Assembly: GCF_009392895.1 (NCBI RefSeq)
Contig: NZ_CP045489.1
Coordinates: 186,001-250,000, forward strand
DNA from: Natronorubrum aibiense
GTDB lineage: Archaea > Halobacteriota > Halobacteria > Halobacteriales > Natrialbaceae
Length of the DNA stretch: 64,000 nucleotides
Reading direction: 5' to 3'
The notes under the pieces are model-generated. The model had not been told where the DNA came from and made no database searches. It saw only the letters and a list, made by a program, of their open reading frames with translations. The position numbers and the translations under genes are program-made. Positions 35,961 through 57,197 of the stretch are shown here, one piece after another (within the stretch, counting starts at the first letter, position 1; every line of letters begins with the position of its first letter).

Positions 35961-36189
35961 TTGTGTGACCGATCCCAAAGAATTCGATTCGTCGGTAAGG
36001 GTCCAGTTTGATACAGAAACACTGTGAGTACACGCTGTTCCGACGGCGTGTCTTCAGTAGAGAACACTTCTTGCTCGCGCGCTGGTTCTACAGAGATTCG
36101 AGGCGAGTGCCTCAAGACTTGACTCCGAGAGCGAAGCCGACACGAACCTTTACCAACCACGTCACCGTCCATTGATTCAACGGATGTAG

Positions 36190-36420
36190 TAGGTGTTAAA
36201 GACCTTAACGCGAAGCGTCCCTCTGAAGGGAATGCGCCAGCTCTCAAAATACCGCGACACCGGGTTGCGGTTGCGACGGGTGGTGTCAGGCCTTGTGGAC
36301 AGGTTGACCGCATTCCTCGTCGTCCGTTCGAGGCAATCAGGCCGAGGGGCGGCAGGAAGTGTTCATCCCAAATCTGCGGGAAGCCTCGGGGCTTGGCCCC
36401 GAGGCGGTTGAGCATCCTTT
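36190..36420 (+). mobile_element. IS200/IS605 (tnpB-type) 3' end remnant
   Basis: A GCCTCGGGGCTTGGCCCCGAGGC hairpin (36385-36407; arms GCCTCGGGGC) followed by GGTTGA matches the right end of haloarchaeal tnpB-type elements. The preceding about 190 bp reads as degenerate protein-like sequence (PSEGNAPALKIPRHRVAVAT). Nothing of the catalytic RuvC part is left, and no matching left end was found. Confidence 0.4.
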
Positions 36421-36510
36421 GTGTACCATTTTCCCTAGCTCGGCCTTACACTATGGTTGAGATGGCTCTATCTATGGAGTGAGCAACTAATGACAGAGTC
36501 GTAGGTGTGG

Positions 36511-37380
36511 TCAATCTGTACTCTTAACTGTAATGACGGGGACTGGAACCGAGCGGACAACCTTCTCAGCAAGACTTCCAAGTAGTATACGTTCAGTCCC
36601 GCGCTTTCCTGTTGTTCCCATCACAACAGTATCGATATCATGTGACTCAATATACTCGAGAATTACATTAATAGGCGTTCCATGTTCAACGTGGTGCACG
36701 ATATTTGTGATCCCGTATGTCTCTGCCTCTGAGGCGAGATTGTCAACGGCCTTGCTTGCCGCTTGTTCTCCAGTTTGATCAGATGACGTTGACAAGAGAC
36801 CCAAACCATGCGGAACATCGTTCACTACGGATAGAATATGAACGGTTGAATCGAGGGTCGCTGCCAATGAGAGCCCATGGTTGGCAGCACGGGTTACTGC
36901 AGGACTTCCATCCGTTAGAATGAGAATATTTTTATATGGGAATGTAACTTGTTCGTCAGGTTGCATCCTCACTGAGAGAACTGGGACAGAAGAGAGTCGA
37001 ACCACTTTCTCAGATGTACTCCCGAGGAGATATCGTGACAACCCCTCTCGGCCGTGAGTTGGCATCACGATTAGATCATATCCGTAATGCTCGGCGTATT
37101 CGACTATCTGCGGGGCTGGATTACCTTGAACAACGTCGGTGTCATACGAGACACCGAGTGTATCCAAGGTTTTTGCTGCCTCTTTGACGATATCATCTCC
37201 TTTTTTAACAAGTGCATCAACAACTTCATCGCCAACGACTGTGACACTATCACGAGTTGTATCTGCAACAAAGAGAATATGGATAGTGGCATCCAGTCGA
37301 TGCGCAATTTCGCTGGTATGATGAAGTGCTTCTGCTGCTCCCTCACTATTATCAAATGGGAGAAGAATGTCCTCGTACAT
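36511..37380 (-). CDS. Tandem universal stress protein (two UspA domains)
   Basis: The start MYEDILLPFDNSEGAAEALH is preferred over Met 2 codons upstream. Domain 1 (about 1-145) ends PTHGREGLSRYLLGSTSEKV; domain 2 (about 150-289) begins ILILTDGSPAVTRAANHGLS and ends GTTGKRGTERILLGSLAEKV. Both have the ATP-binding G-x-x-G-x9-G-[ST] motif, and both keep the conserved acidic strand-1 region. Usp proteins accumulate under stress. The gene stands alone; a promoter is likely in 37381-37430. Confidence 0.88.
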   Translation of the reverse strand: MYEDILLPFDNSEGAAEALHHTSEIAHRLDATIHILFVADTTRDSVTVVGDEVVDALVKKGDDIVKEAAKTLDTLGVSYDTDVVQGNPAPQIVEYAEHYGYDLIVMPTHGREGLSRYLLGSTSEKVVRLSSVPVLSVRMQPDEQVTFPYKNILILTDGSPAVTRAANHGLSLAATLDSTVHILSVVNDVPHGLGLLSTSSDQTGEQAASKAVDNLASEAETYGITNIVHHVEHGTPINVILEYIESHDIDTVVMGTTGKRGTERILLGSLAEKVVRSVPVPVITVKSTD

Positions 37381-37660
37381 ACTCACTGCAAAGAATACTA
37401 TGGGAGTCTCTAAGGTCTTTTCCCTCTCTCCACTTAGAGAGCTATCTCCGATGGATAGATGACCGACCTCTCACTCGCGGCTACATGATCTCGAGCGACT
37501 GTTTGGTTCGCTTTTGCGGTCGCTGGTTCCGAAGTTTCATGTACGATCCAATCACGCTGCCGTCGAAGTCGACCCCATCGACGACGCTTGCCTCGTCGAG
37601 GATGCTGTTCTGGACGGACGCATCGAGTTTAAAAGTGGCCCCACAGACATGTTTTCTCTT

Positions 37661-39043
37661 TCACGATATATTAGAAATGTCGTTTAGGTCGAACAATTGG
37701 AGATCGTCACGCTCGGACACGGCTTCCTGTACTGATTGTGTTACTCCACTCCGTGTAAAAAATGCATATTCCGTGTCAACTTCGCCAGTATCCGGCGTCC
37801 AGCGAATCTCCGACGCATGATCTTCGAGTGAGGCGAGCGCACTGTAGTCAAGCGGCGCGCTAGTGAACTTGCATTCTCCCACGACCATTGTCCCGTCTGT
37901 GGTAAACCCGACAACATCGACCTCGTGTTCCTTGTACCACCAGCGGCCGATATCGAGGAACAACTTCTCTGGATACAGATTCGGGAGGGCATCCTGGCAA
38001 AGCGTTTCGAACTCTTGACTGACGAAATCAGGGAGTTCTGGTTCGATAACTGCGTCGTAGGCATCCTCACCTAGACGTTCGTATCGATCTTCTTTGCCGT
38101 AAACGAAGCGGAACCAGAATCGAAAGAGGGGATCCAAGATTCGATATCGTCCGCGGCGTGACTTCGCTTTCTCCTCGGTGATCGGAACTTCCCGTTCAAT
38201 GAGCCGCAATCGTTCTAACTTCTGGGTGTACGTCGAGATTTGCTTCCCGTCAATTCCCACCGTTTGGGCAATCTCGTTTGATGTCGTCTTCCCCGCGGCT
38301 ATTGCGGTGAGGATCGCAAAGTACCGATTTGGGTCTGTGAGTTCGGTTCGGAGGACGTATTCTGGTTCGTTGTGGAGGTACCCTTTCTGAGAGAGCACTT
38401 CCTTCGTGAGGACTGTGCCGAGGTCCTGGTTGAGATCGATACCGTCAAGATAGTATGGTACACCACCAAAAATACCCCACGCGAAAACACGCTCTTCAGG
38501 GGAGTAATCGCCTGGAAGGAACTCTTGTGCAGCGGCGAAGTCGAGTGGCCGGAGATCAAGTTTCTCGGTGAAGCGCCCGTACAGGGGACTGTTCCCAAGA
38601 AGCGTCGCTTCTTCCATCATGCTGATTGACGAGCCAACCAGAATGAGGGTTCCCGATGTATTTTGGAATCGCTGATCCCATAATCGCTGGATGGCCGAGG
38701 GAAGGCTCGCGTCGGCATCGATCAAGTAGGGAAATTCGTCGAGGACGATGATTCCGTCTTGGTCACCAAGATATCCCAGAAGCGCTTCCCAGTTTTGCTT
38801 GATATCCGTAATTCCTGGAAACGTGTCGGCAGCGACGTCGACAAACTCGTCGAGTTGTATCTGTGAAGTGGTTTCCGTAGCCTGATAGACGACGGCATCG
38901 TCGCGCTCGGCAAGGGAGTGCTGGACGAGTTGTGTTTTCCCAAGGCGCCGTCGGCCGAAAATAACAACCATCTCAGCATCGTCGGAATCGTAGCACCTGC
39001 GGAGCCGTGAAAGCTCATTTTCCCGGTTGACGAAGCGCACCAT
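37661..39043 (-). CDS. Archaeal ATPase with DUF234 nuclease-like domain
   Basis: The 460-residue protein starts MVRFVNRENELSRLRRCYDS. A P-loop GRRRLGKTQ (30-38) and Walker B GIIVLDEFPYL (about 96) belong to an archaeal ATPase (PF01637). A wHTH follows (NEIAQTVGIDGKQISTYTQK, RLRLIEREVPITEEK), then a C-terminal DUF234 (PF03008) region with YKEHEVDVVGFTTDGTMVVG, ECKFTSAP, which resembles a PD-(D/E)xK nuclease core (D...E-x-K). Members are mobile archaeal genes of unclear role. AAATAGGCTATTT repeats just upstream suggest regulation. Confidence 0.88.
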   Translation of the reverse strand: MVRFVNRENELSRLRRCYDSDDAEMVVIFGRRRLGKTQLVQHSLAERDDAVVYQATETTSQIQLDEFVDVAADTFPGITDIKQNWEALLGYLGDQDGIIVLDEFPYLIDADASLPSAIQRLWDQRFQNTSGTLILVGSSISMMEEATLLGNSPLYGRFTEKLDLRPLDFAAAQEFLPGDYSPEERVFAWGIFGGVPYYLDGIDLNQDLGTVLTKEVLSQKGYLHNEPEYVLRTELTDPNRYFAILTAIAAGKTTSNEIAQTVGIDGKQISTYTQKLERLRLIEREVPITEEKAKSRRGRYRILDPLFRFWFRFVYGKEDRYERLGEDAYDAVIEPELPDFVSQEFETLCQDALPNLYPEKLFLDIGRWWYKEHEVDVVGFTTDGTMVVGECKFTSAPLDYSALASLEDHASEIRWTPDTGEVDTEYAFFTRSGVTQSVQEAVSERDDLQLFDLNDISNIS

Positions 39044-39081
39044 ATCTGTACATTATCCCACCAGAAGATAACACTTCCGAG

Positions 39082-39123
39082 TAGCCTATTCTAAAATAGG
39101 CTATTTCAAAATAGGCTATTTTA
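39082..39123. promoter_or_regulatory. Direct AAATAGGCTATTT repeats upstream of ATPase gene
   Basis: AAATAGGCTATTT occurs at 39094-39106 and 39109-39121 (15 bp apart), each a near-perfect palindrome with AAATAG and CTATTT arms. A third degenerate unit TAGCCTATTCT lies at 39082-39092. They lie 39-80 bp upstream of the ATPase start at 39043, so they probably form an operator or a strongly AT-rich promoter. The ATPase has a wHTH, so autoregulation is possible. Confidence 0.55.
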
Positions 39124-39190
39124 AAGCTGTCTACAAGGACCTCTCTGTATTCTTGGAATCGCTGTACTGAAGCGGGTGACTCGAGTCCGT

Positions 39191-39455
39191 TCACCCACGC
39201 ACGTCGTCAATCGAATCAGAGACGGCCTTCATTTTGACGTCGGCGTAGGCCTCGTGGGTGGTCTCGATCGAGTTGTGTCGTAACGGTTCCTGAGCCTTTT
39301 CGGACATCCTGCTGGTTAGAGGTCGCGCCCGAGTGCCCGGCGAGCGCCGTGCAAGGTGAGATAGTCGTACTCGCACGGACAGAAGTAGTAACCACTCAGA
39401 ATTTCTCGGTTGACTCGACGGAAACTACCGATTCTCTCGTCGTAGCTGTTCAGTT
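39191..39455 (-). pseudogene. Tyrosine integrase, C-terminal fragment
   Basis: The frames read SYDERIGSFRRVNREILSGY, YFCPCEYDYLTLHGARRALG, RDL, then a stop and frame change, then SEKAQEPLRHNSIETTHEAY, ADVKMKAVSDSIDDVRG. The H-G-A-R-R, R-H and final Y-catalytic neighbourhood are those of tyrosine recombinases (XerC/D-like haloarchaeal integrases). Only the C-terminal half remains. It may be left from an integrative element that brought in the adjoining genes; no att repeat was found. Confidence 0.7.
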
Positions 39456-39544
39456 GCAATTATGCAAATACATGGTAACTGCATTATTATATTCGGATTA
39501 CAGTCAATAACAGAATACTCACTTCGAATCTGCTAAGTCACGTC

Positions 39545-41125
39545 ATGGTAGACGATCAATCGAACCGCGACGGGCTGAAGCGGAGAGGCTACCTCAAAGG
39601 GGTCGTGGGAACTGGACTCGGCATCGGCATACTAAGCATGTCGACTGCCACCACGCACGCGAGCGATGACGAGAACGATACCGAGGACGACGCCGAGAAC
39701 AAGGGTAATACGCATAATGTTGATGGCGACAGCGTATACTTGGTCTTCGGTGCCGATACGTCCGAGGACGATCTCGACGCGTGGGTCGCCGAACACAAAG
39801 ACGAGATCACCGAGGGATCGAGAGACTCCATCACACAAGTTGTTCAATATCATGATGTCTCCCAGCTTAACGTCAATCAGCAGGCTACCGCCGTCAGTAT
39901 CGCTATTGATGACGGAGAGGCGACGGCAATTCAGCAGGCCAACCAGAATAACAACAATACCCAAAAGGGACACGCTGAGTCGATAAACATCTCAGAAACA
40001 GAGAACAGTGAGACGTTCAACGACGTCAGCAACGTGTACATTGTCTTCGCCGAGGAGACCGGATACCGAGAATTCAACGGCTGGGTCGTGAGGGACGAGA
40101 CCTACCAAAGCGAGCAGTCTGCCCAGGTGACGATTGAGCAGTCTCAGACGGTCAATCAGTTGAACTACAGCAGCCAGAGCGCTGCCGTCGCCATCGCTGA
40201 AGGTGGCAGCGACGCCGAGGCCTACCAGCAGAGTGCGCAGACGAACGAGAACTACCAGCACGCCGAGGCAGCCGCGGTGAATGTCAGTAGTAACGAGAAG
40301 GAGACAGGTGACGGTCAGGAGGCACTGGAATCGGTTGAACAGTGGCAGGAAGTGGCCCAACTCAACGTCAGTGAGCAGGGCGTCGCGATCGCGATCGCCG
40401 TCGGTAGTGGCAGCGTTGCGGAGGCGTGCCAAGTAAGTGCACAGTGTAATCTCAACGAGCAGGTCGCTGACGCGACCGCGATCAACTTTGAATGGACGTC
40501 CGCCGACGAAGTCGTCGCTAACGCGGACATGGTCGGCGAATTCTCAGACGAGGAGATGAACCGCACTGATGATGGTTCGTCTCAATCGAACACCCAGGAA
40601 GAATCCGCTAATATCACGCAGGTTCAGAGCGTCGGACAAGAGAACATCAGCTTACAGAACGCCGCGATCGCCGTCGGAACCGACGATAGCACCGCAACAG
40701 CTCGACAGGAGAGCTATCAGGCAAACTTGAATGCACAGGTCGCATCCGTGGAAGCGCTGAACGTCCAAGATTCTCACTGCAGCGCGACCGTAGTGGTGAG
40801 CGGAAAGGACACGAACGGCGACAAATCGTGGGCTATCGCCTACGAGAATGGCGACAATGAGACCGCACAGCAGATGGCTACCGCTGAAATCAACCAACTA
40901 CAGTTCATTGAACAACTGAACGTCAACGAACAAAACGGCGCGATTGCGTACGCCGCTAACAGCGACGATGCGGTGGCCGAGCAGCTAAATTACCAGTTGA
41001 ACAAGAACGTACAGGTAGCGGAAACAAGCGCTGTCAATGAAGGTGAAGGTGGAGGTAAGAAGGACAAGGGGAAAAAGAAAAAGAAGGTGAGAAAGTGCTC
41101 TATTGAAAATGCGGTACGGCGCTAA
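39545..41125 (+). CDS. Secreted Q/N-repeat protein, curli-like amyloid candidate
   Basis: The 526-residue protein starts with a twin-arginine-like signal LKRRGYLKGVVGTGLGIGIL. After an acidic linker come five about 53-residue repeats (about 96-148, 194-247, 263-314, 356-406, 446-498). Each follows Q-x-x-x-Q-L-N-x-x-x-Q-x-x-A-x-x-I-A, then A-x-A-x-Q-x-x-x-Q-x-N-x-N-x-Q-x-A-x-A. A VY(L/I)VF...W-V module (64-85 and 164-185) precedes repeats 1 and 2. The regular Q/N ladder resembles CsgA-type curli repeats; the C-terminus is Lys-rich. Function is inferred; no chaperone or secretion gene is nearby. Confidence 0.75.
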   Translation: MVDDQSNRDGLKRRGYLKGVVGTGLGIGILSMSTATTHASDDENDTEDDAENKGNTHNVDGDSVYLVFGADTSEDDLDAWVAEHKDEITEGSRDSITQVVQYHDVSQLNVNQQATAVSIAIDDGEATAIQQANQNNNNTQKGHAESINISETENSETFNDVSNVYIVFAEETGYREFNGWVVRDETYQSEQSAQVTIEQSQTVNQLNYSSQSAAVAIAEGGSDAEAYQQSAQTNENYQHAEAAAVNVSSNEKETGDGQEALESVEQWQEVAQLNVSEQGVAIAIAVGSGSVAEACQVSAQCNLNEQVADATAINFEWTSADEVVANADMVGEFSDEEMNRTDDGSSQSNTQEESANITQVQSVGQENISLQNAAIAVGTDDSTATARQESYQANLNAQVASVEALNVQDSHCSATVVVSGKDTNGDKSWAIAYENGDNETAQQMATAEINQLQFIEQLNVNEQNGAIAYAANSDDAVAEQLNYQLNKNVQVAETSAVNEGEGGGKKDKGKKKKKVRKCSIENAVRR

Positions 41126-41137
41126 GATCATAGCTTC

Positions 41138-41480
41138 TTAGCGGTCTTTTTGATGTAATGGAAAGTGAACACGAGGACGATCTCCCGGAACTGGCGGTAC
41201 CAGAACCGCGAATGCAGGGCGAGGCTTGCATTCGCAGTTTTGCAATCTCTTTCGCTTGATCGGCCGTCTCGCCGGTTTCAGCGATCGATTCGTTGACCTC
41301 ATGGATTTGGCTGGCGATCTTCTTGCGGTTGCGCTCGGCACGGCTCTGTTCCTGCTGGAGATCGTCGATACGCTCCTCGAGGCGTCACACTGGAACAATG
41401 TTGACTCCAACCTCGAGGACTCCGGCAATGATGAAGCAGATGGACGCACTCACAATACCATTGAAACACGAGAGCCTGAC
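41138..41480 (-). pseudogene. Remnant of a membrane/coiled-coil gene
   Basis: The minus frame reads RLSCFNGIVSASICFIIAGV to VNIVPV, then a stop codon, then EERIDDLQQEQSRAERNRKK, IASQIHEVNESIAETGETAD, QAKEIAKLRMQ, a long coiled coil. The in-frame stop between the membrane segment and the coil (about 41390) breaks the gene. The C-terminus becomes Arg/Ser-rich and decayed. Not recognised. Confidence 0.4.
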
Positions 41481-41527
41481 GCTGTATGGTGATTCACCAA
41501 AACCAATAATATTATTATCAGCTACTG

Positions 41528-42932: not shown

Positions 42933-45260
42933 TTACGCAGGCAGGGAGAGATCTACATTCCCTAGTCTGCGGGCGTTAATCGCGACGATGATCGTCGACA
43001 GCGACATAAACACGGCGCCGATCGCCGGCGACAGGAGGATACCGATGGGTGCGAGAATCCCCGCCGCAAGCGGGAGCGCGAATACGTTGTAGCCGGTCGC
43101 CCAGACAAGATTTTCCTGCATCTTCCGGTAGCTCGCCTTCGACAGTCGGATGAGCCGCACCACATCCACCGGGTTGTTGTCGACGAGGATGATATCGCCC
43201 GATTCGATGGCGACGTCGGTCCCCGATCCGATGGCGATACCGACGTCAGCTCTCGTGAGCGCCGGCGCGTCGTTGACACCGTCGCCGACCATCGCGACGA
43301 ATTTCCCTTCCGACTGGAGCCGTTCGACCTTCGTGTCCTTCTCCTCGGGCAGCACCTCCGCGAAGTACTGGTCAATACCGAGTTCCTCGGACACAGCCCT
43401 CGCGACATCCTCGCTGTCGCCAGTGAGCATTGCCACTTCGATGCCCATCCCGTGCAGCGCCTCGATAGCCTGCCGGCTTTCTTCCCGAATGACGTCTGCC
43501 AGCGCGAACGCTGCGGCGATCTCGGATTCATCGTGGACCAGGTAGATGATCGTCTGTGCGTTCGAGCCGGCTTCCTCAGCGAAGGCAGCGATATCGTCAG
43601 GTCGTTCGATGCCGAGTTTCTCGATCAGGTTGGGGCCACCCAGATGAACCGTCTTGCCATCGACGGTGGCTCTGACACCGAGACCGCGAAGGTTCTCGAA
43701 GTTCGAGACGCTCGCTCGCTGCACCTCCCGTTCCTCAGCAGCATCCCGGATGGCGCGAGCGATCATATGTTCGGAGTCGCCCTCGACACCAGCGGCGATT
43801 TCGAACACGCGCTCTTCACTCCAGTCGCCTGCCGTCTCGACGTCGACGACGCCCTGTTCGCCCTTCGTGAGCGTGCCCGTCTTGTCGAACATCACCGTAT
43901 CGAGGTTACGAGATTCCTCCATGGCTATGCGGTCGCGGATGAGCATCCCGTTCTGGGCAGCGGTCGAGGTGTTGATTGCGACAACGAGCGGGACGGCCAG
44001 GCCAAGTGCGTGGGGACACGCGATGACGAGAACCGTGACCACGCGTTCGAGAACACCGATGTTGAACCCGACTGCGACGATCCACGCGACGGCCGTAATG
44101 CCCGCAACGGCGAGTGCGACGTAGAACAGCCACCCTGCTGCGCGGTCCGCCAGGAGCTGCGTGCGGGATTTGGACTGCCGGGCTTCATCAACGAGCCGCA
44201 TGATGCCTGCCAACGTCGTCTCCTCGCCCGTCTTAGTGATTCTGATGCGGAGGCTCCCGTCCTGGTTGACCGTCCCGGCGACCACTTCTGAGCCGGGTTC
44301 TTTGCCCACGGACCTGGACTCGCCGGTGATCATCGATTCGTCGACGGACGACTCGCCCTCGGCGACCTCGCCGTCGGCGGGAACCGAAGCACCGGGACGA
44401 ACGAGTACGACGTCGTCCTCAGAGAGTTCGTCGACTGGCACTTCCTCGGTATCCCCACTCTCGGTGACGCGCTCGGCGGTGTCGGGCATGAGCTTCGCCA
44501 GTTCGTCGAGCGCACCGGAGGCCTGTCGGACCGAGCGCATCTCCATCCAGTGGCCCAGCAGCATGATGTCGATCAGCGTGACCAGTTCCCAGAAGAACGG
44601 CGTCGTCCCTTCGAGAAACAGGCTCGCGATCGAGTAGACGAACGCAACGGTGATCGCCAGCGAGATCAGCATCATCATCCCTGGCTCACGGTTCTCGAGT
44701 TCCGTCCGGGCCATCGAGAGGAACGGCACGCCACCGTACGCGAAGATCACGACTGAGAGGACGGGTGTGATCCAGACGCTTCCAGGGAACGACGGCGCCG
44801 TGTAGCCGAAGACATCCTGAATGAACTCGCTGAAGAAGATGACCGGCACCGAGAGCACGAGCGACACCCAGAACCGCCGCCGGAACATCTGCTCGTGGCC
44901 CGTGTGGTCCGTGTGGGCGGCGTGATCTTCGTGCCTTCCCTCGTGGACGTCCGCGCCTTGGTCGTGTGCATCGTGATCGTGTTCGCCCTCTCCAGTATGG
45001 GCGTGGCTGTGTCCGGGCTCGGCTTCGGGATTGTGGTGTGCGTGTTCGTCGGTGCTTCCGGGTTCCGTGGTAGTCTCGCCCGTCCGGTCGTGGTTCGTGT
45101 GCTCGGAAGAGTGGGGAGGCTCCGTGGTAGATGAGGGATCTGTCGCTCGCCTCCTTCCATCTGCTTCTAACTGGCAAATACGGCAGCAGTAGACGGGTCT
45201 CTCGGAATTAGTTTCCGACGAAGCGTCCCGTGTACGCTCGTGGTCTATGTGGTTGCTCAT
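42933..45260 (-). CDS. copB: Copper-translocating P1B-type ATPase, CopB-like
   Basis: The 775-residue protein has a long His/Asp/Glu-rich N-terminus with YCCRICQLE and many H-x-H motifs instead of an HMA domain. P-type motifs follow: TGES (actuator), CPH in [12 protein letters not shown] (the CopB-type ion-site signature), [11 protein letters not shown] (phosphorylated Asp) and [20 protein letters not shown]. The membrane topology has eight spans. CPH-type ATPases export Cu2+/Cu+ or Ag+. It lies upstream of the broken SHOCT gene on the same strand. Confidence 0.9.
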
Positions 45261-45384
45261 GGGTTGGGTGTTGGTGCCATTCCCCCATTATTCTGTCCGG
45301 GACCTGATACTGCGCGGGACGATCAGGGCAGGCGGACTCGGAAGAGAACGACGAGGTGGTTGTCCGCGAACGTTCTGGGTGCTC

Positions 45385-45582
45385 TCAGGCGTGGGCTGTG
45401 TATCCAGCGTCTTCGACGGCTTGCACGAGGGCCGTGACGTCGGCGTCACCATCGACACTCGCCTGTTCGGCCTCACGATCGGCGGTGGCGTCAGTCACAC
45501 TAGACACGCCTTGAAGTGCCTCTTCGACTGTCTGTTCACAATGGCCGCAGGTCATTCCCGCGACGGTGATCGTTTGACTCAT
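45385..45582 (-). CDS. copZ: CopZ-like heavy-metal-associated chaperone
   Basis: The 65-residue protein starts MSQTITVAGMTCGHCEQTVE and is a complete HMA domain with the G-M-T-C-x-x-C metal site. The rest (EALQGVSSVTDATADREAEQ, VTALVQAVEDAGYTAHA) keeps the beta-alpha-beta fold. CopZ-type proteins deliver Cu+ to P1B ATPases. It is divergent from the Lrp/TRASH regulator at 45716 across a 133-bp spacer and lies upstream of copB on the same strand. Confidence 0.9.
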   Translation of the reverse strand: MSQTITVAGMTCGHCEQTVEEALQGVSSVTDATADREAEQASVDGDADVTALVQAVEDAGYTAHA

Positions 45583-45715
45583 TCCAGTGAGAGATACGGA
45601 CGGCTCCTCTTTGTCGTTTGCTGCTTCGATACTGCTGTTCGAACGGCCGTAAAACGACGCATTCCAAAGTATCTGCTGGGGAATCGTATTGTATCCTGGA
45701 TCCCTATCGCCTAGT

Positions 45716-46306
45716 ATGCGGGACTTGGACGAAACCGACATGGAGATTCTCTCACAGTTAGCCGAGAACGCCCGTCGCCCGTTCAGCGCGATCGGCGAGG
45801 AAGTTGGCCTCTCGGGGCCAGCGGTTTCAGATCGCGTCACACGGCTCCAAGAGACCGGGGTCATCAACCACTTCACTATCGATGTCGACCGTACCAAACT
45901 CAGAGCTGGTGTGCCGGTACTTGTCCAGCTAGATAACCCATCTGAGTCATTCGACGCGGTTCGTGAGCGGGTCAGGAATGATGACGCCGTCGAACACATG
46001 TTCATTACGTCCGAGGGAGACCTCTGGTTCTACGGACGTGCAGAAGCACAGAACGTCCGGGTGTGGGTGAACACACTTCTGGATGGCGCTGACTCGGTTG
46101 ATTACACAGTCACGTTAGTCGACGAAGTCGAGTGGACGCCATCGATCGACGGCGTCGAGTTCGCACTCACGTGTGCCGAGTGCAGTAATACTGTGGATTC
46201 TGAGGGGGAGACGAGTCGTATTGGCGGAGAACTCTATCATTTCTGTTGTCCATCGTGTCAGAGTCGATTCAAAGATCGACACCAACGTCTCGAAGAGGGC
46301 GTGTAG
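45716..46306 (+). CDS. Lrp/AsnC-type regulator with C-terminal TRASH metal domain
   Basis: The start MRDLDETDMEILSQLAENAR is chosen because it begins the HTH; the upstream start at 45689 adds nine residues. The wHTH (RRPFSAIGEEVGLSGPAVSD, RVTRLQETGVINHFTID) is followed by an Lrp-like ligand domain and a TRASH zinc/copper-binding tail C-A-E-C...C-C-P-S-C-Q-S-R-F. TRASH-Lrp proteins are archaeal copper regulators (CopT/CopR-like). It sits between copZ (divergent) and the CopA-type ATPase, which it probably controls. Confidence 0.85.
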   Translation: MRDLDETDMEILSQLAENARRPFSAIGEEVGLSGPAVSDRVTRLQETGVINHFTIDVDRTKLRAGVPVLVQLDNPSESFDAVRERVRNDDAVEHMFITSEGDLWFYGRAEAQNVRVWVNTLLDGADSVDYTVTLVDEVEWTPSIDGVEFALTCAECSNTVDSEGETSRIGGELYHFCCPSCQSRFKDRHQRLEEGV

Positions 46307-46396
46307 CGCTGACGTTGGTTTGGAACCGAAAGTAAACGCCGTTGATTACCCTCACTATCCAAGTAGAAACTCACCTAACGGAGTAGCCCCTATAGT

Positions 46397-49009
46397 ATGA
46401 TAATGGAAACACGCACAGCACATCTCGACATCACAGGGATGACCTGTGCCAACTGCTCGGGGACAGTTAGCGACGCCCTGGAGTCACTCGACGGCGTCAT
46501 CGAGGCGAACGCCAATTTCGCCACGGATGAGGGCTCCGTCGAGTACAACCCTGACGAGGTATCGCTTGCAGAGATTTACGAGACGATCGAGGACGCCGGC
46601 TACGGTGCGGTGTCTGACACGGTGACCATAGGCATCTCCGACATGACCTGTGCCAACTGTGTACAGACGAACGAGACCGCGCTCGAGAACACGCCGGGTG
46701 TTATCGCGGCCGAGGCAAACTTCGCCACCGACGAAGCGCAGGTCAGGTACAACCCTGCGGACACGTCCCTCGACGCGCTCTACGACGCTATCGAGGACGC
46801 TGGTTACTCGCCGGTCCGTGAAGACAGCGACAGCGGTGAATCGGGTGAAGATGCTCGGGACGCTGCACGACAGGGAGAGATTCGAAAACAGCTTCGACTG
46901 ACGCTGTTCGGAGCCGCGCTGTCGGCCCCGATGCTGTTTTTCCTCGCAGAGAAGTTTCTGCTCGGCGGGGGAATTCTCCCGGAGACGGTCTTCGGCGTCG
47001 AATTTGGGTGGGTTGAGTTCCTGCTGGCGACACCCGTTCAGGCCGTGCTTGGCTGGCCGTTCTACAAGAACTCCTACAACGCGCTGGTCAACAACAGGCG
47101 CGCCAACATGGACGTTCTCATCGCACTGGGTTCGTCCACTGCGTATTTTTACTCCGTTGCAGTACTTGCCGGACTGATCGCGGGAAGCTTGTACTTCGAC
47201 ACTGCCGCGCTCATCCTGGTGTTCATCACCCTTGGGAACTACCTCGAAGCCCGCTCGAAAGGGCAGGCAGGCGACGCCCTTCGGAAGCTCCTCGAAATGG
47301 AGGCCGAGACGGCCACCGTTGTCGACGAGGACGGTACCGAAGTGGAAGTGCCACTCGAAGATGTCACAGTCGGCGACCGCATGAAGGTCCGTCCAGGCGA
47401 GCAGATCCCGACCGACGGCGTCGTCATCGACGGCCAGAGCGCCGTTGACGAGTCGATGGTCACCGGCGAGTCGGTCCCCGTCGAAAAAGGCGAGGGCGAC
47501 GAGGTTGTTGGCTCAACGATCAACGAGAACGGTGTGCTCGTCGTCGAGGCGACGAAGGTCGGAAAGGACACCGCCCTCCAGCAGATCGTTCAGACAGTCA
47601 AGGAGGCCCAGTCCCGCCAGCCAGACATCCAGAACCTCGCCGACCGCATCTCGGCGTACTTCGTCCCAGCAGTCATCGCGAACGCGTTGCTGTGGGGCAC
47701 TGTGTGGTTCCTCTTCCCCGAAGCACTCGCCGGATTCGTCGACTGGCTCCCGCTCTGGGGAGCGGTCGCTGGCGGACCAGCCGTGGCTGGTGGCACTGTC
47801 TCAGTCTTCGAGTTCGCGCTCATCGTCTTCGCGTCGTCCGTGTTGATCGCCTGTCCCTGTGCGCTGGGGTTAGCGACGCCTGCTGCAACGATGGTTGGGA
47901 CGACGATCGGTGCCCAGAACGGCGTCCTGTTCAAGGGCGGTGACATCCTCGAACGGGCGAAAGACGTCGACACGGTCGTCTTCGACAAGACGGGTACGCT
48001 GACGAAAGGCGAGATGGAACTGACCGACGTCGTCGTCTTCGATGGCGACAGACAGTCTATCACAGACGGCGGCGACACCGCTGCCGATGGCGGCCAACTA
48101 ACCGCACGTGACCGCCTCAACGAAAACGACGTGTTGCGGCTCGCGGCCACGGCCGAGAGCGGGAGCGAACACCCGCTCGCCCGGGCCATCGTCGACGGAG
48201 CCAGAGACCGCGGCATCGACGTGAGCGACCCCGACAACTTCGAGAATGTCCCTGGCCACGGTATCAAAGCGACCGTCGGCGAGAATGAGGTGCTGGTCGG
48301 AAACCGAAAGCTCCTCCGCGACAACGGGATCGACCCCTCGCCCGCTCAGGAGACGATGGAGCGCCTCGAGAACGAGGGGAAGACGGCGATGCTCGTCGCC
48401 TACGAGGGCGAACTCGTCGGTGTGGTCGCTGACGCCGACACGATCAAGGAAACTGCGACCGAGGCCGTGAGCCAACTGCAGGAGCGCGGCGTCGACGTGA
48501 TGATGATCACCGGCGACAACGAGCGGACTGCTCGTGCCGTCGCCGAGCAGGTTGGGATCGACCCCGAGAATGTCCGCGCGGAGGTTCTTCCCGAGGACAA
48601 ATCCGATGCCATCGAGGCCATTCAGGACGAAGGTCGCAAGGCGATGATGGTGGGCGACGGCGTCAACGACGCGCCCGCGCTCGCAGTCGCCCACGTCGGG
48701 ACCGCCATCGGGAGCGGGACGGACGTCGCCATCGAAGCGGCGGACGTGACGCTGATGCGCGACGATCCACTAGACGTGGTGAAGGCCATTCGAATCTCGG
48801 ACGCGACACTCCAGAAGATCAAGCAGAACCTCGTGTGGGCGCTTGGTTACAACACGGCGATGATCCCGTTGGCTTCACTCGGGCTGCTCCAGCCCGTCCT
48901 CGCAGCCGGCGCGATGGCCTTCTCGAGTGTGTCGGTGCTGTCGAACAGTCTACTGTTCCGTCGGTACACTCCAGATCACGATTACGAGCTCCTCGGCCGC
49001 CTTCGCTGA
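46397..49009 (+). CDS. copA: Cu+-exporting P1B-type ATPase, CopA-like, two HMA domains
   Basis: The 870-residue protein (start [17 protein letters not shown], or M3) has two N-terminal HMA domains ([11 protein letters not shown] and [11 protein letters not shown]), then CPCALG in [29 protein letters not shown], the [20 protein letters not shown] hinge and [14 protein letters not shown]. The CPC motif marks a P1B-1 Cu+/Ag+ exporter. A short AT-rich promoter (CCTATAGTATGATAATGG) overlaps the start, consistent with leaderless transcription. It follows the TRASH-Lrp regulator by 90 bp. Confidence 0.93.
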
Positions 49010-49027
49010 ACATCACCTGCTCGACCC

Positions 49028-49270
49028 ATGTCCAATATTTCTCGCCAAACAGTGCACGCGTATCTCGTCGAGATGGCCAGCTCCGAGCCGACGTACCTCC
49101 GTGCTCGGGAGATTGCCAATGATTTAGACGCATCACCGAAAGCTGTCGCACAGTATCTCAGTCAGCTCCAAGAGACCTCGTCGACGTATCGATCGAACAG
49201 CGGCCTGCTCATGGCGCTCTTGGGCGTGATAGTCGTGGTCCCCGGAGAGACTCGAAATACAGGAAATTAA
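49028..49270 (+). CDS. Small wHTH (DUF7123-like) protein, C-terminus possibly frameshifted
   Basis: From MSNISRQTVHAYLVEMASSE the N-terminal 55 residues make a compact wHTH-like unit: PTYLRAREIANDLDASPKAV, AQYLSQLQETS. This resembles haloarchaeal DUF7123 proteins. The C-terminus SNSGLLMALLGVIVVVPGET is unlike the family; the +1 frame reads LVDVSIEQRPAHGALGRDSR, closer to the expected V-S-I-E-Q-W-G-R-S end, so an indel near 49180 is possible. It follows copA by 18 bp and is probably in its operon. Confidence 0.55.
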   Translation: MSNISRQTVHAYLVEMASSEPTYLRAREIANDLDASPKAVAQYLSQLQETSSTYRSNSGLLMALLGVIVVVPGETRNTGN

Positions 49271-49821
49271 CCGAGAAGATATCGAGTCCAGGGATACCGT
49301 TCAACGAGCGGCACTCCACCGACCTCGTACTGTTCGATATACGCATCGAGCCCTAGTATCCGTCCAGCGCCGAACGCGGCGACAGAGAGGAACACGAGCA
49401 TGTACGCGAAATCCCCGTTGATGTAGCCGTGTGCGACGTCCCAGTTGCCGAAGTAGAACATGAGCATCATAAACGCCCCCCAGAACGCAGCGAGCCGAGT
49501 GAGCACGCCGAATAACAATCCGAGGCCGATAAGCACCTCACCCCACGGCACTGCGACGTTCACGAAGTCAACGAACCACGGCGTGTTCCCCATCGCAACG
49601 AACAAATCTGCAAGCGGACTCCCGCTGTTCGGGACGGCCCCTGTTAGATAGCCGCCGGCACTAAAACTCCCCGAGAGAACCTTGTCAAGTCCACTCTGGA
49701 AAAACGCAATTCCCATCATCAACCGAAGCGCGAAGATAAACCAGACACTCAGCGTGTGTAGTCGACCGCTTGCGGTGAACCCCCCGATCGTACTTTCTAG
49801 CTGGACTTCGTGCGATGCCAT
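49267..49821 (-). CDS. DoxX-family membrane protein
   Basis: The start MASHEVQLESTIGGFTASGR is chosen because the upstream 29 residues read poorly. The 184-residue protein has four or five spans with the DoxX pattern: ALRLMMGIAFFQSGLDKVLS, GWGEVLIGLGLLFGVLTRLA, MLMFYFGNWDVAHGYINGD. DoxX/TQO small subunits are membrane components of quinone-linked sulfur or thiosulfate oxidation, but many are stand-alone and of unknown role. Convergent with the wHTH gene (4-bp overlap). Confidence 0.8.
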   Translation of the reverse strand: MASHEVQLESTIGGFTASGRLHTLSVWFIFALRLMMGIAFFQSGLDKVLSGSFSAGGYLTGAVPNSGSPLADLFVAMGNTPWFVDFVNVAVPWGEVLIGLGLLFGVLTRLAAFWGAFMMLMFYFGNWDVAHGYINGDFAYMLVFLSVAAFGAGRILGLDAYIEQYEVGGVPLVERYPWTRYLLG

Positions 49822-49980
49822 ATTATGGGCTGACTCTCGGACGACAAATAAACCCAGGCAGTACTTTGCCTCCTCAGTATCTCTAAATAGAGGCCAGCAG
49901 CCAGACACGTCACAAAGTCAGTTTCACCAGCAGCATTCTTCGTAGTGCTCGGAAAATGGCGATTCTCTGGAGAGAGGCGG

Positions 49981-52761
<2,781 letters not shown>

Positions 52762-52888
52762 ACCTTGTCCTACGGTGACGTGGCTCTTGAATCATCTCCC
52801 CCATGGATGGGGTGACGATGTGGACGGTCACTTCTATCAGTTGGAATGAGAACGTCAGTATACATAATTCGGTTGACAACTGATTCTG

Positions 52889-53422
52889 CTACGAACTCGT
52901 CCCCGGCGACTTCGGTTTTTCAGATGCCGACGATTCGATGCGGTCCTTGAAGAAGACGAGTTCCTTGGTCGTGTGATCGTAGAGTTTCGCCTTCCCATTG
53001 AGAGCGGTCGTGAACACCCATTTCAGCGCCCGTCCCCGTCGGTTATTCGGGAAGTCCATCCAGACGGTGTGTGACATCCGAGTCCCGTCTTCAGTCTCTT
53101 CGAGTCGAATGGTGCCTCCTTCGGGAATCCGAACGGTGACGAATCCTCGAAGGAGCGGGTAGTACGCCGTCCCCGTCCAGACCGCCACGTTGGGATGGTC
53201 AATATACTGGAATCGGCCATGCAGGTCGGCGTACATCCCGGCGACCTCTTCGGCCTGGTGGAACGTTGCGCCCTCTCGGGGACGGTTATCAGGCGTGTCG
53301 TATTCGAGCCCATAGTGTTCTTCGGGGTTCGACGCCGTCCAATGGACTGGGTCGGTTACGTACTCCCAGATCTCCTCGGACGATGCGTCGATGACGATTT
53401 CGGCTTTGTCGGTGACGTACAT
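52889..53422 (-). CDS. SRPBCC-superfamily lipid/ligand-binding protein
   Basis: The 177-residue protein starts MYVTDKAEIVIDASSEEIWE, YVTDPVHWTASNPEEHYGLE, with a central beta-grip segment GATFHQAEEVAGMYADLHGR, FQYIDHPNVAVWTGTAYYPL, and a C-terminal helix region ending NGKAKLYDHTTKELVFFKDR. This is the START/SRPBCC helix-grip pattern. The ligand is unknown. It precedes repeat copy 3 in transcription order and has no obvious operon partner. Confidence 0.75.
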   Translation of the reverse strand: MYVTDKAEIVIDASSEEIWEYVTDPVHWTASNPEEHYGLEYDTPDNRPREGATFHQAEEVAGMYADLHGRFQYIDHPNVAVWTGTAYYPLLRGFVTVRIPEGGTIRLEETEDGTRMSHTVWMDFPNNRRGRALKWVFTTALNGKAKLYDHTTKELVFFKDRIESSASEKPKSPGTSS

Positions 53423-53438
53423 GGATTGGCTCCCTGAT

Positions 53439-53796
53439 TTATCAAGCGGAGTAGGGCGCTAAAACCTCGCGCTTCAGCGCGGGGATACAGCGCCCGCACG
53501 TAGTTTTAAGAGGTTCTACGGCGGACTGAATGCTATCCGAGGCGGTCTATCCGCCCTATCCCAATGAGACAGTATCGGGATTCGCCCTTTCGTCGTGGAA
53601 GGCACCCCTTCCATCAGACGAACAGGGTGCAGGAAGCACAAGATAACTCCGAATCCCCGTCTCCTCAACGGTGGATAGGGGTAACGGTAGCGTGGCACTG
53701 CCAGCATTCCCTCGGGGATGTGAAACCGTAAATCTCCCAACTCAGCAAGCTTCGGCTTGTGGGAAGCTCCGCCGTTTACGGCGGAGAGGATGTCAC
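53439..53796 (-). mobile_element. PATE-like element, copy 3
   Basis: A 358-bp copy nearly identical to copies 1 and 2, ending TTATCAAGCGGAGTAGGGCG (53439 on) and GGATGTCAC (53788-53796). The right-end TGA supplies the stop of the small membrane protein gene next to it (53793). It lies between the SRPBCC gene and that holin-like gene. Confidence 0.75.
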
Positions 53797-54092
53797 GATG
53801 CGAAGGCGTTGTACAGCCACGCGAAGGCGTACATCAAGACGAAGCTGATCACCGCTGCCTCGACCATGCCCGCCACAGTCCCGACGACGGTCGGTTCGAA
53901 GAACAGGTGCCACTGCTCCATCGCTTCGACTGCGCCCTCGTAGACGCCGATCGTTCCGAACACACCGAGCAGGAGCATCGCGATGGCAGAGACGACTGCT
54001 GCTGCGCCCGCCAGTGCCAACGAATCGAGATTCATCACGTTGGTCGTGGAGTCCATTTCGTACGCGTCTTGGTTTGTGGTAGTAGTGCTCAT
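53793..54092 (-). CDS. Small holin-like/DUF5676 membrane protein
   Basis: The 99-residue protein starts MSTTTTNQDAYEMDSTTNVM and continues NLDSLALAGAAAVVSAIAML, LLGVFGTIGVYEGAVEAMEQ, WHLFFEPTVVGTVAGMVEAA and VISFVLMYAFAWLYNAF, the pattern of archaeal DUF5676/holin-like proteins (L-D-x-L-x-x-x...W-L-Y-N-x-F). It forms three spans. Its stop codon TGA is within the end of repeat copy 3, so the native C-terminus may be one or a few residues different. Confidence 0.75.
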   Translation of the reverse strand: MSTTTTNQDAYEMDSTTNVMNLDSLALAGAAAVVSAIAMLLLGVFGTIGVYEGAVEAMEQWHLFFEPTVVGTVAGMVEAAVISFVLMYAFAWLYNAFAS

Positions 54093-54413
54093 GACTAGAG
54101 ATACGCTCTACTCCTTCAATCGGGTTTCTCTTACAATTCGAAAGGGAGTGTTTCCTTGGTAACACGGAGCAAGATTATCGTGGGGGAAACAGCGGTACAA
54201 CCCCCATATCTGTGTGGCCGGTCCGTCGGAAGACCAAGGAGCAACCACCGACTGGAATCAGCGACACGCAAAAACTGATGAGCGCGAACGCAGTCCTCGA
54301 ACGGTTGACCACGTCTGATAGCACGAATTACCTTTGATTGCAAAATTCACTCCGCCCACTGCCTCGGTTTCTTAAGAACAAATAACAAAACAGATGGCTG
54401 CGATAGTCTAGAT
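54093..54413. other. 321-bp spacer before the metal permease gene
   Basis: No coding frame on either strand is convincing (a 70-codon minus frame is Arg/Leu-rich and unlike neighbours). Just upstream of 54414, TTTCTTAAGAACAAATAAC is AT-rich and placed about 30-45 bp before the start, a likely promoter. No hairpin pair or repeat was noted. Confidence 0.4.
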
Positions 54414-55817
54414 ATGCAAGCCGCCCTCATCGACGGAATTCTCGAGTCGCTACGGATCGGCGTCGGGTTCCTCTGGATGGCGACTTGGGCGATCATCATG
54501 GGGCTCGTCATCACGAGCCTCGTCCAAGTCTACGTCTCGAAAGAGCGAATGGCCAACGTACTCGGAGAGGGTGACCTGAGCGGTCTCGCGAAGGCGACGG
54601 TGTTCGGCGCCGCGAGTAGTGGCTGTAGCTTCGGCGCCGTCGCCATCAGTAAGGGCCTGTTCAAGAAGGGCGCGCACGCGGTGAACTTCCTTGCGTTCAT
54701 GTTCGCCTCGACGAACCTCATCGTCGAACTCGGCCTGATGATCCTCATCCTCCTTGGCTGGGAGTTCCTTCTCGCGGAACTCCTCGGCGGCGTCATCCTC
54801 ATCTCCGTGATGGCGCTCCTCGTCCATCTGACGCTCCCCGAGAACCTGTTCGAGCAAGTCCGGCAGGAACTGAATCAACGCGACCACGAGCAGGGAACCA
54901 CCGAGGACCCGACCTGCGGAATGGAAGGCAAAGACGAGTACTCGCTGGTGACTGACGGGGGCGAGACGCTGAAGTTCTGTTCGGAGGGTTGCATGGAGAC
55001 TTACCAGCAGGAGGCCGCAAGTAGCGGCGGGTGGCGCGACGAACTCCTCTCGTGGGGTGGGTGGTACAAAGTCGGGAACCAGTACCGCAAGGAGTGGTCA
55101 ATGATCTGGACGGACGTCATCGCAGGCTTTCTCATTTCGGGGTTCGTCATCGTCTTCGTCCCCCAGCGGGTGTGGAACACCCTGTTCCTCCAGGGCGACG
55201 GACTACTCGTCAGCGCCGAGAACGCCATCATGGGTGTGGCGATCGCCGTCATCAGCTTCGTCGGGAGCATCGGCAACGTCCCGTTCGCCGTCGCATTGTG
55301 GGGAGGCGGTGTCAGCTTCGCCGGTGTCATCGCGTTCGTCTACGCCGATCTCATCACGATTCCAGTCCTGAACGTCTACCGGAAGTACTACGGCTGGAAA
55401 GTGATGCTGTACATCCTCGGCGTCTTCTTCGTCACGATGGCCTTCACCGGCTTCCTCATGGAGCAACTGTTCGCGGCGCTCGACATAATCCCGAACCTCG
55501 CTGGCGGGCAGACGGCGTCCGAACAGACGTACTTCGAGCTCAACTACACCTTCTACCTCAACATCATCGCGTTCGCGCTCTCCGGATTCCTCCTGTACGT
55601 CTACCGACGCGGCCTCGGTGCACCTGGACAGTACCGCGACCCCGTCTGTGGGATGCGAACCGACGATAGCGGGCCAAGTCTCACCCACGACGGCGAGACG
55701 TACTACTTCTGTTCGGATCAATGCAAGCGATCGTTCGAGAAGCGCCCCTCCGAATTTGCACAGCAACACCCACAGGTCTCAGAGACGGGTTCTTCCCAGA
55801 GCCATGAACATCACTGA
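54414..55817 (+). CDS. Permease (DUF318/ArsP type) with two TRASH/YHS metal modules
   Basis: The 467-residue protein has an N-terminal permease half (GILESLRIGVGFLWMATWAI to EQVRQELNQ), a TRASH/YHS module DPTCGMEGKDEYSLVTDGGE to FCSEGCMETYQQ, a second permease half (SMIWTDVIAGFLISGFVIVF to GFLLYVYRRG) and a second TRASH/YHS module DPVCGMRTDDSGPSLTHDGE to FCSDQCKRSFEKRP. The split permease matches DUF318 (PF03773) proteins, which move arsenite or other metal species. The C-terminus ends in S-H-E-H-H. Confidence 0.8.
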   Translation: MQAALIDGILESLRIGVGFLWMATWAIIMGLVITSLVQVYVSKERMANVLGEGDLSGLAKATVFGAASSGCSFGAVAISKGLFKKGAHAVNFLAFMFASTNLIVELGLMILILLGWEFLLAELLGGVILISVMALLVHLTLPENLFEQVRQELNQRDHEQGTTEDPTCGMEGKDEYSLVTDGGETLKFCSEGCMETYQQEAASSGGWRDELLSWGGWYKVGNQYRKEWSMIWTDVIAGFLISGFVIVFVPQRVWNTLFLQGDGLLVSAENAIMGVAIAVISFVGSIGNVPFAVALWGGGVSFAGVIAFVYADLITIPVLNVYRKYYGWKVMLYILGVFFVTMAFTGFLMEQLFAALDIIPNLAGGQTASEQTYFELNYTFYLNIIAFALSGFLLYVYRRGLGAPGQYRDPVCGMRTDDSGPSLTHDGETYYFCSDQCKRSFEKRPSEFAQQHPQVSETGSSQSHEHH

Positions 55818-55949
55818 CCACTGTGTCTCGATACCAAATATCTCGGTGAGGCAGCCCCGGGTATTGCGTTGGCCAATCAAAACTTGTACAGTAATGTCTC
55901 GCGAACTCTTATGCATGAGTAGGTATCTCAGCGGATCGAGGTGGGGGAA

Positions 55950-56543
55950 ATGAATCGACGGCGAGCCGATACAGTAGTCAGTGGCTTGGTCGCCGCCGTC
56001 CTCGTCGTCGGCGGTGTGCTCAGCTGGCAAGCATATCAGCAACAGCAAGCCTTCGACCAGATGGGATCGATGATGGGCACGTCGATGGGGTCCGTTCACG
56101 GAACAAATCCACTCTGGTACATCCTCGGAACCTTCCTCGTCTCGGCTGTCATCGGTGGGGGGTATCTCGTGATTCGGGATGAGGTCACCAGCATAGACGT
56201 AAACGACCGCTCACAGGATGAAATGGCGAATCCGACCGATCCTGAGGAAGACGAATCGCCAGAGGTAGCTATCCAATCGAATGGTGCCATCAATCCGGAG
56301 TCTCAGCCACAGGCTCGCGTGTTAGACCTCTTGCCGGATGATGAGCGACGGATCCTCGAACCGGTCATCTCCTCGCCCGGGATCACACAGGTCGAACTCA
56401 GGGATCGGTCGAACTTCTCGAAGAGCAAAGTAAGTCAGACGGTGAGCGCTCTCGAGAAGCGCGGGCTGCTGTACCGCGAGCGCCAGGGGCGGACATATCG
56501 CATCTATCCGAGCGACGACTTACAACGGAAACAGGCGAACTAG
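55950..56543 (+). CDS. Membrane-anchored wHTH regulator (DUF7343-like)
   Basis: The start MNRRRADTVVSGLVAAVLVV (alternative MGEM at 55941) opens a span, a Met-rich loop QMGSMMGTSMGSVHGTNPLW (a possible Cu+ site) and a second span YILGTFLVSAVIGGGYLVIR. A disordered linker leads to a C-terminal wHTH: RVLDLLPDDERRILEPVISS, TQVELRDRSNFSKSKVSQTV, SALEKRGLLYRERQGRTYRI. This is a membrane-linked MarR-like layout. It lies just downstream of the permease and may sense extracellular copper. Confidence 0.8.
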   Translation: MNRRRADTVVSGLVAAVLVVGGVLSWQAYQQQQAFDQMGSMMGTSMGSVHGTNPLWYILGTFLVSAVIGGGYLVIRDEVTSIDVNDRSQDEMANPTDPEEDESPEVAIQSNGAINPESQPQARVLDLLPDDERRILEPVISSPGITQVELRDRSNFSKSKVSQTVSALEKRGLLYRERQGRTYRIYPSDDLQRKQAN

Positions 56544-56876
56544 TGGACTGTTCCCACGAGTCCAGACCCGTGCTAAAGTTGTTCCACTGTCACAACCTGT
56601 ACCATCTCGATGCAGGGATGGCGCGTGTCGTGAGATACGTCGAGTGACTCGGTTGAAGACCCGGTTTCAGATCGTTCACACTGCCGTTCGTGTGGTCGTG
56701 GTCCTGTCTGGGAGAAGGGGAGAGTGCCAATCCGGCGAATTCGAGCCGGATGAACGATTCCATTCCTGAAAAACGGTTAGAGCGCCCTATATACGTTCTA
56801 GAACGTTCTCCTGCGCGAATTCACACCCACGTCGATAACTCCCGAGCAGTCCTACGAGTAACCGAGGAGAAAGACA
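56544..56876. other. 333-bp spacer with operator upstream of secreted-protein gene
   Basis: No supported gene. A plus frame from 56690 is Ser/Arg-rich and unlike neighbours. It contains the 14-bp palindrome at 56793-56806, a TATA-like CCTATATA just upstream of it, and a purine-rich GAGGAGAAAG before the start at 56877 that could serve as a ribosome-binding site. Confidence 0.4.
56793..56806. promoter_or_regulatory. 14-bp palindrome ACGTTCTAGAACGT
   Basis: ACGTTCTAGAACGT is a perfect 14-bp palindrome, preceded by CCTATATA. It lies 71 bp upstream of the secreted Met/His-rich protein gene. Perfect palindromes of this length are good repressor sites; the membrane-linked wHTH regulator upstream or the TRASH-Lrp protein is a candidate ligand. 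No second copy was noticed elsewhere in the window. Confidence 0.5.
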
Positions 56877-57197
56877 ATGACCAACTTCAAACTCGGCCGC
56901 TGGCTGCTCGTGGCGCTCGCGATCGTCGGACTCGCGTTCGCTGCCCCCGTGGTCAGCGCACACGGCAACGAAACGACCGCAGACGACGCGCCCACGGACA
57001 ATGCCACCGCAGATGAATGGGCCACTTGGATGGAGGCACAGATGACCGAACACATGGGCCCTGGTAGCGTCGAGTGGATGGAGTCGCACATGGGTGTGAC
57101 CGTCGACGAGATGGCCCAGGACACGGCTGACGAGGAATACCACGGCGGGGCTGACGACGAGTACCCCGGTGGGATGTACGGGCAGGGCCACTGCTGA
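56877..57197 (+). CDS. Secreted Met/His-rich putative copper-binding protein
   Basis: The 106-residue protein starts MTNFKLGRWLLVALAIVGLA with a Sec signal cleaved near VVSAHG. The mature part is acidic with repeated Met-His motifs: WATWMEAQMTEHMGPGSVEW, MESHMGVTVDEMAQD, and the C-terminus GGMYGQGHC. Met/His/Cys clustering of this type is typical of periplasmic/extracellular Cu+ scavengers. A run of metal- and redox-related genes follows on the same strand, beginning with the SHOCT gene 57 bp downstream. Confidence 0.75.
   Translation: MTNFKLGRWLLVALAIVGLAFAAPVVSAHGNETTADDAPTDNATADEWATWMEAQMTEHMGPGSVEWMESHMGVTVDEMAQDTADEEYHGGADDEYPGGMYGQGHC

Follow-up and report, generated by a model that had tools for sequence, protein, structure and literature searches.

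PDC-S27 is among the commonest unvalidated defence candidates, and in the available text of its description it is an ATPase fused to a PD-(D/E)xK member, abundant in archaea, with 3503 genes of this type counted in archaea and 4562 in bacteria (PMC12988326). Its status as a candidate was assigned by genomic association, and validation is pending for most such candidates; the same text lists PDC-S01 as another single-gene ATPase fused to a PD-(D/E)xK member (PMC12988326). A second report, in the part available, counts PDC-S27 and comments on its origin (PMC13356809), and DUF234 is named in the accessible part of a survey of Campylobacter hypothetical proteins; PF03008 has no mention in the literature searched. 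The nearest regulatory precedent is CapW, which, like BrxR, is reported to repress a defence system in uninfected cells through a palindromic operator in its promoter (CapW: PMC9122588). The main text of PMC12988326 does not mention operator, promoter, repeat array, direct repeat, "autoregulat" or wHTH, and no earlier report of the array described below was found in the literature searched, which excludes most subscription journals and bioRxiv preprints. The protein family is already known as PDC-S27, and what is new to the literature searched is the array, which is conserved and diversifying and is probably the autoregulatory operator of this defence-candidate family.

The gene that led to the array occupies 37661..39043 on the minus strand of the window (the whole 64-kb stretch of DNA analysed here) and encodes an ATPase_2 - winged helix - DUF234 protein of 460 aa, which belongs to the same family as PDC-S27, its best PADLOC model (E 9.7e-45 over residues 1-396). 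The original prediction had described an ATPase-DUF234 gene with a wHTH and a nuclease-like C-terminus, and this description holds in each of its parts. Both Pfam domains score above their cut-offs (ATPase_2, residues 4-199, 90.6 bits against 33.2; DUF234, from residue 310, 66.5 bits against 22.5), and Pfam gives a weak MarR-like match (MarR_2) at residues 241-285. The Walker A motif lies at residues 30-37 (38933..38956, minus strand), with Walker B, D102 E103, further on. The winged helix, residues 238-290 (38174..38332, minus strand), has been delimited from the AlphaFold2 model, the MarR_2 match and the operator covariation discussed below; the model places helices at 255-262 and 266-278 together with wing strands, the recognition helix being predicted at about 266-278. 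The DUF234 region (37673..38128, minus strand) has a PD-(D/E)xK fold whose residues E346, D376, E390 and K392 are invariant across 33 aligned sequences, so that the motif is intact. Among 61 representatives sharing less than 70% identity, all keep G30, K36, D102, E103, R157, E346, D376 and K392, and 57 keep E390.

The full-length AlphaFold2 model, built from 33 aligned sequences, reached a mean pLDDT of 92.3, and its fold matches were the archaeal ATPases 2qen and 2fna, followed by Orc1/Cdc6, plant NLR resistosomes and MuB filaments; a profile search with the protein returned 2fna, 2qen and the transposon ATPase VchTnsC (E 4e-6). Modelled alone, the C-terminal region (pLDDT 80.1) was matched by Foldseek to MspJI, NucS/EndoMS, McrC and Card1, with E <0.001 for three matches only; all four of these proteins are PD-(D/E)xK nucleases. 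Membership of the WYL family did not emerge, Pfam giving no such match up to E 0.1 and PADLOC only one at E 0.037 over residues 239-303, which is the HTH region. From its sequence, the gene product is predicted to be an ATP-driven DNA-binding nuclease and is a suspected antivirus protein. The original statement that DUF234 ATPases are without confirmed function stands, with the addition that the family is already listed as the putative candidate PDC-S27.

Directly before the gene, two perfect copies of the 13-mer AAATAGGCTATTT lie at 39094-39106 and 39109-39121, 15 bp start-to-start, with a degenerate third copy at 39079-39091, as had been claimed. Read in the sense of the gene, the array consists of three operator units on the minus strand, AAATAGCCTATTTTG (39107..39121), AAATAGCCTATTTTA (39092..39106) and the degenerate GAATAGGCTACTCGG (39077..39091), the end of which overlaps the presumed BRE. 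Unit 3 is followed by CGGAAGTGTTATC, which shares the last three bases of the unit and has been taken for BRE plus TATA because its TATA-like part is centred about 27 bp ahead of the ATG. This presumed BRE/TATA, CGGAAGTGTTATCT (39066..39079, minus strand), is assigned from the general features of haloarchaeal promoters, and its spacing fits a leaderless transcript. When up to 2 mismatches are allowed, the 64-kb window contains 4 matches, two sites each counted on either strand, where 0.25 would be expected; none of 100 shuffles had as many. The exact 13-mer occurs in the 4.35-Mb genome only at the two places before this gene. An RNA element was considered as well and rejected, Rfam having no match at 36000-41500.

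The conservation of the array has been followed in relatives picked by protein similarity alone, with the upstream sequence disregarded and the stretches for the listed matches added. From 217 loci, 189 unique ones were retained after 17 without a Walker-bearing ORF of at least 350 aa, 6 duplicate proteins and 5 without a start or with less than 110 nt upstream had been dropped; lags of 8-30 were compared in these loci and in the 61 representatives, with 1220 dinucleotide shuffles and 278 neighbouring ORFs as controls. The persistence of the repeat upstream of orthologues, by which the original prediction was to be judged, is clearly present: lag 15 is the single best in 146/189 unique loci and in 35/61 representatives (57%), against 35/1220 shuffles and 19/278 neighbouring ORFs, and a lag-15 score of at least 19 of 26 is reached by 88/189 loci and 22/61 representatives, against 2/1220 shuffles and 2/278 neighbouring ORFs. 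An earlier test of 133 loci had given the same picture. The neighbouring-ORF control (19/278) also rejects the array as a general feature of haloarchaeal promoters. The 26 of 61 representatives without a unique best lag of 15 comprise ten ties, three at the harmonic 30, and arrays either too short for the lag test or truly departing from it (e.g., L109 at 16). A 16-bp instead of a 15-bp period is seen in two family members, L109 and L255, and some deep-branching archaeal copies seemingly have about one and a half units only.

On inspection of the upstream regions, almost every close orthologue has a 15-bp array, and so do distant subfamilies, whose repeats read quite differently (for instance GTATGATACTTCAGA, GAAATCGTGATTTCC and TATTATAGTTCAAAC); the repeat sequence thus changes by subfamily, and the period and the half-site geometry persist. 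Ten bacterial plasmid copies from six phyla, hand-picked from 60 listed, showed a best lag of 15 in nine cases (Rhodothermus, Mesorhizobium, Rhizobium, Sinorhizobium, Cetobacterium, Vibrio, Parabacteroides, Arcobacter and Streptomyces) and of 16 in Bacteroides uniformis. Dyad axes paired 7.5 bp apart give a mean joint score of 11.69, against 9.95-10.36 at other spacings save 15 bp (11.23), and 7.5 bp is the commonest unique best spacing (14/61 representatives, with 32 ties), so that each repeated 15-bp unit is best described as a pair of inverted half-sites. The sibling DUF4143 ATPases, which we take to be PDC-S01, lack this period (lag 15 in 0 of the 21 loci parsed out of 30), and an array common to all ATPase/PD-(D/E)xK genes is rejected on this ground. 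Three of these 21 loci (L238, L241 and L243) have upstream repeats with a 23-bp period, and the DUF4143 family may have a different operator geometry of its own.

The position of the array differs among lineages. In Halobacteria it spans about -78 to -36 from the ATG and ends at the BRE/TATA, in 8 other Halobacteriota it lies at about -27 to +8, in most directly behind the TATA, and in bacteria it covers about -71 to -19. A sigma70-like scan of 34 bacterial arrays placed 21 over the -35 to -10 region, 12 downstream and 1 upstream, although this was a crude best-hit scan and the A+T-rich arrays themselves resemble -10 boxes. A single geometry thus recurs at varied sites that in every case lie at or close to the promoter core, and this favours repression. 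The best surviving alternative keeps the same array and the same binding and has the protein activate its own promoter in a positive feedback, by recruiting TFB or RNA polymerase. The halobacterial arrays, which end at the BRE, upstream of the TATA, lie in the usual position of an activator, so that one could also sit there; however, the arrays of the other Halobacteriota cover the start site and the start codon, and those of bacteria overlap or follow the promoter core in 33/34. Blocking explains one geometry at these sites more easily, and we regard activation as unlikely.

As to which protein reads the array, operator similarity has been compared with domain identity in loci having a lag-15 score of at least 16 (149/189), thinned to 78 under 85% identity. 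With the ATPase domain and the C-terminal region held constant, operator similarity follows winged-helix identity (partial r = 0.20, 0/500 permutations), and the corresponding values are 0.095 for the ATPase domain (4/500) and -0.07 for the C-terminal region (466/500). Plain, unpartialled correlations hardly separate the domains, and for divergent pairs they all but disappear (r of 0.04 to 0.08). The partial correlation is modest and relatedness is only partly controlled in it, and it is supportive, not proof, of a reading of the array by the encoded winged helix. The paralogues L001, L002 and L003 of one genome have differing repeats, and the presence of a subfamily-specific repeat before most relatives suggests that the protein both recognizes and operates the switch of its own gene. 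The self-regulated unit of the original prediction is borne out to this extent, the array lying near the promoter in most relatives tested and its sequence tracking the wHTH. It is improbable that a host regulator binds the arrays in place of the encoded protein: one genome holds different repeats before its paralogues, the repeat covaries with the encoded wHTH, and the exact repeat is found in its own genome only before this gene.

The limits of the unit are apparent from comparisons of DNA. Six close loci are homologous to the window from about 37623-37689 to 39130-39178, and for 236/259 close pairs the homology has its 5' limit between -60 and -90, whereas 5 pairs have long flanks in common. 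When 41 genomes, the source genome included, were searched with 36500-41100, seven relatives matched the gene in full length, and in all seven the homology ends before the integrase remnant and the flanking genes. Among close copies, homology is usually lost at the edge of the array on one side and close to the stop codon on the other, and the unit is therefore the gene plus its array. The tyrosine integrase fragment noted on the same strand does exist, as a 3' remnant with a 61-aa ORF (39191..39376, minus strand) sharing 80% identity over 55 aa with the C-terminal end of annotated tyrosine integrases from Natrinema and Natribaculum plasmids, but it lies outside the conserved stretch in 7/7 full-length relatives and recurs alone elsewhere. 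An integrase-linked mobile unit is accordingly rejected and the link of the integrase to the ATPase gene is accidental; of the proposed mobile-element linkage only a weaker sense survives, namely a unit that changes its genomic context, as these limits of homology indicate. The integrase 3' end (39182-39374) recurs at about 90% identity and in similar extent in the source genome and its congeners, at places including G000:C2:360371, G943, G944 and G953, which could be the mark of repeated integration or excision. Elsewhere in the window, a 526-aa protein (39545-41125, plus strand) shows an apparent Tat-like signal and Q/N-rich repeats, with a look that we perceive as curlin-like and no Pfam match, and 42933-57000 holds metal-handling genes, with two P-type ATPases (one recognized by eye, one by Pfam) and an ArsP-like permease with a YHS domain. 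The Pfam scan of 16 window proteins reveals no evident defence island.

Family copies occur on many plasmids and also on chromosomes, with three paralogues in one genome, and the annotated plasmid neighbourhoods vary and often contain transposases, toxin-antitoxin genes or integrases. DUF234 is also present in the laboratory haloarchaeon Haloferax volcanii. No conserved neighbour was found, the most widespread neighbouring ORF family occurring in 5 of at most 46 genome_contigs loci scanned, and there on both sides of the gene, and a type II toxin-antitoxin system is rejected for want of a partner gene. It is very doubtful that the array is one end of a transposon-like element with a TnsC-like ATPase and a TnsA-like nuclease. 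The profile match to VchTnsC, the presence of MuB among the fold matches and the sharp unit boundaries would agree with such an element, yet a transposase partner is not conserved, an inverted repeat was not noticed at the 3' boundary near the stop codon, and a 28-nt piece of the array scored hardly above shuffled sequence in the rest of 40 loci (one at 22 of 28 and two at 19, against a shuffled maximum of 18), so that a second array was not found 3' of the gene and a transposon or insertion sequence with matching repeats at both ends is rejected. Equally doubtful, despite Orc1/Cdc6 being among the best fold matches and many copies being plasmid-borne, is an iteron-like replication or partition site bound by an Orc-like initiator of small replicons, because copies are chromosomal too, three paralogues share one genome, the array sits at a promoter and a nuclease domain would be unusual for an initiator.

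Arrays are also found in other arrangements. In G944, at locus L267 (G944:C29, about 1987-2250), a promoter with an L001-type array directly precedes another paralogue, an L003-type ATPase equipped with an array of its own, so that the cassettes are nested. Operator-like sites number 23 in 15/146 genomes, and 18 of them adjoin an ATPase match. The other five, in G108, G014, G057, G040 and G028 (loci L269, L270, L271, L272 and L273), are arrays that lack a neighbouring ATPase gene; seven family members used as tblastn queries found none in the 4-kb stretches. Three of the five belong to one genus (g25) and have no more than about 100 bp in common with the filled site of G029, a similarity that extends no further than the bases just before the ATG. 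These arrays are read as relics after gene loss, and they may alternatively control a second regulated gene; in L270 and L272 the open frame of a possible regulator follows the array, which makes a takeover of the promoter conceivable. These arrangements fit a history in which gene-plus-array units are gained, lost and nested. One scan of viral_contigs with one degenerate operator pattern found none, and therefore no direct link to viruses is drawn.

Taken together, we consider it likely that the locus is a self-contained one-gene cassette whose ATPase-nuclease regulates itself, probably as a repressor, through a private operator. The single gene combines a STAND/Orc-like ATPase, a winged helix and a PD-(D/E)xK nuclease domain, and directly before it about three 15-bp units make up the private operator, in which half-sites alternate at intervals of 7.5 bp. 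The winged helix of the protein may bind this array cooperatively and the bound protein would then hold its promoter low, until ATP binding or hydrolysis together with a trigger, most likely infection or foreign DNA, changes the assembly, lifting repression and activating the putative nuclease. The cassette would be inherited and exchanged as gene plus array, and its putative defence role is carried over from the candidate status of PDC-S27. A more speculative version, to which we give little weight, makes the array part of the sensor, the ATPase-nuclease being parked on it as an inactive oligomer, to be set free and armed once the array is unwound, degraded or outcompeted in infection. If this were true, each operator would act as a tripwire by which the cassette monitors the state of the host chromosome, and the diversified repeats would keep the paralogous tripwires of one cell from crossing. 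The proposed autoregulatory cassette itself offers a direct route to experiment, since the 15-bp geometry is constant across two domains of life and the repeat sequence varies with its reader, which predicts a DNA ligand for each member, and therefore purification, binding, ATP dependence and activation become directly testable. The array is also a promoter signature with which family members can be found and classified.

The closest solved relatives by sequence and fold, 2qen and 2fna, are of about 350 aa and lack the C-terminal nuclease region. Orc1/Cdc6 proteins are similar in fold, with an AAA+ ATPase plus a winged helix, and they bind repeated origin boxes; to our knowledge they have no nuclease domain, and the array described here, in contrast to their origins, belongs to the promoter of a gene whose location varies. 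TnsC and MuB are likewise DNA-bound ATPases related by profile or fold, whereas the source unit has neither a transposase partner nor a second end that could be found. In CapW and BrxR, a separate WYL regulator controls the CBASS or BREX operon and the operator is one palindrome, whereas the source gene combines the sensor ATPase, the DNA reader and the nuclease domain in one protein preceded by a 15-bp array; if the proposed mechanism is true, that single protein would serve a suspected immune system as sensor, repressor and effector at once.
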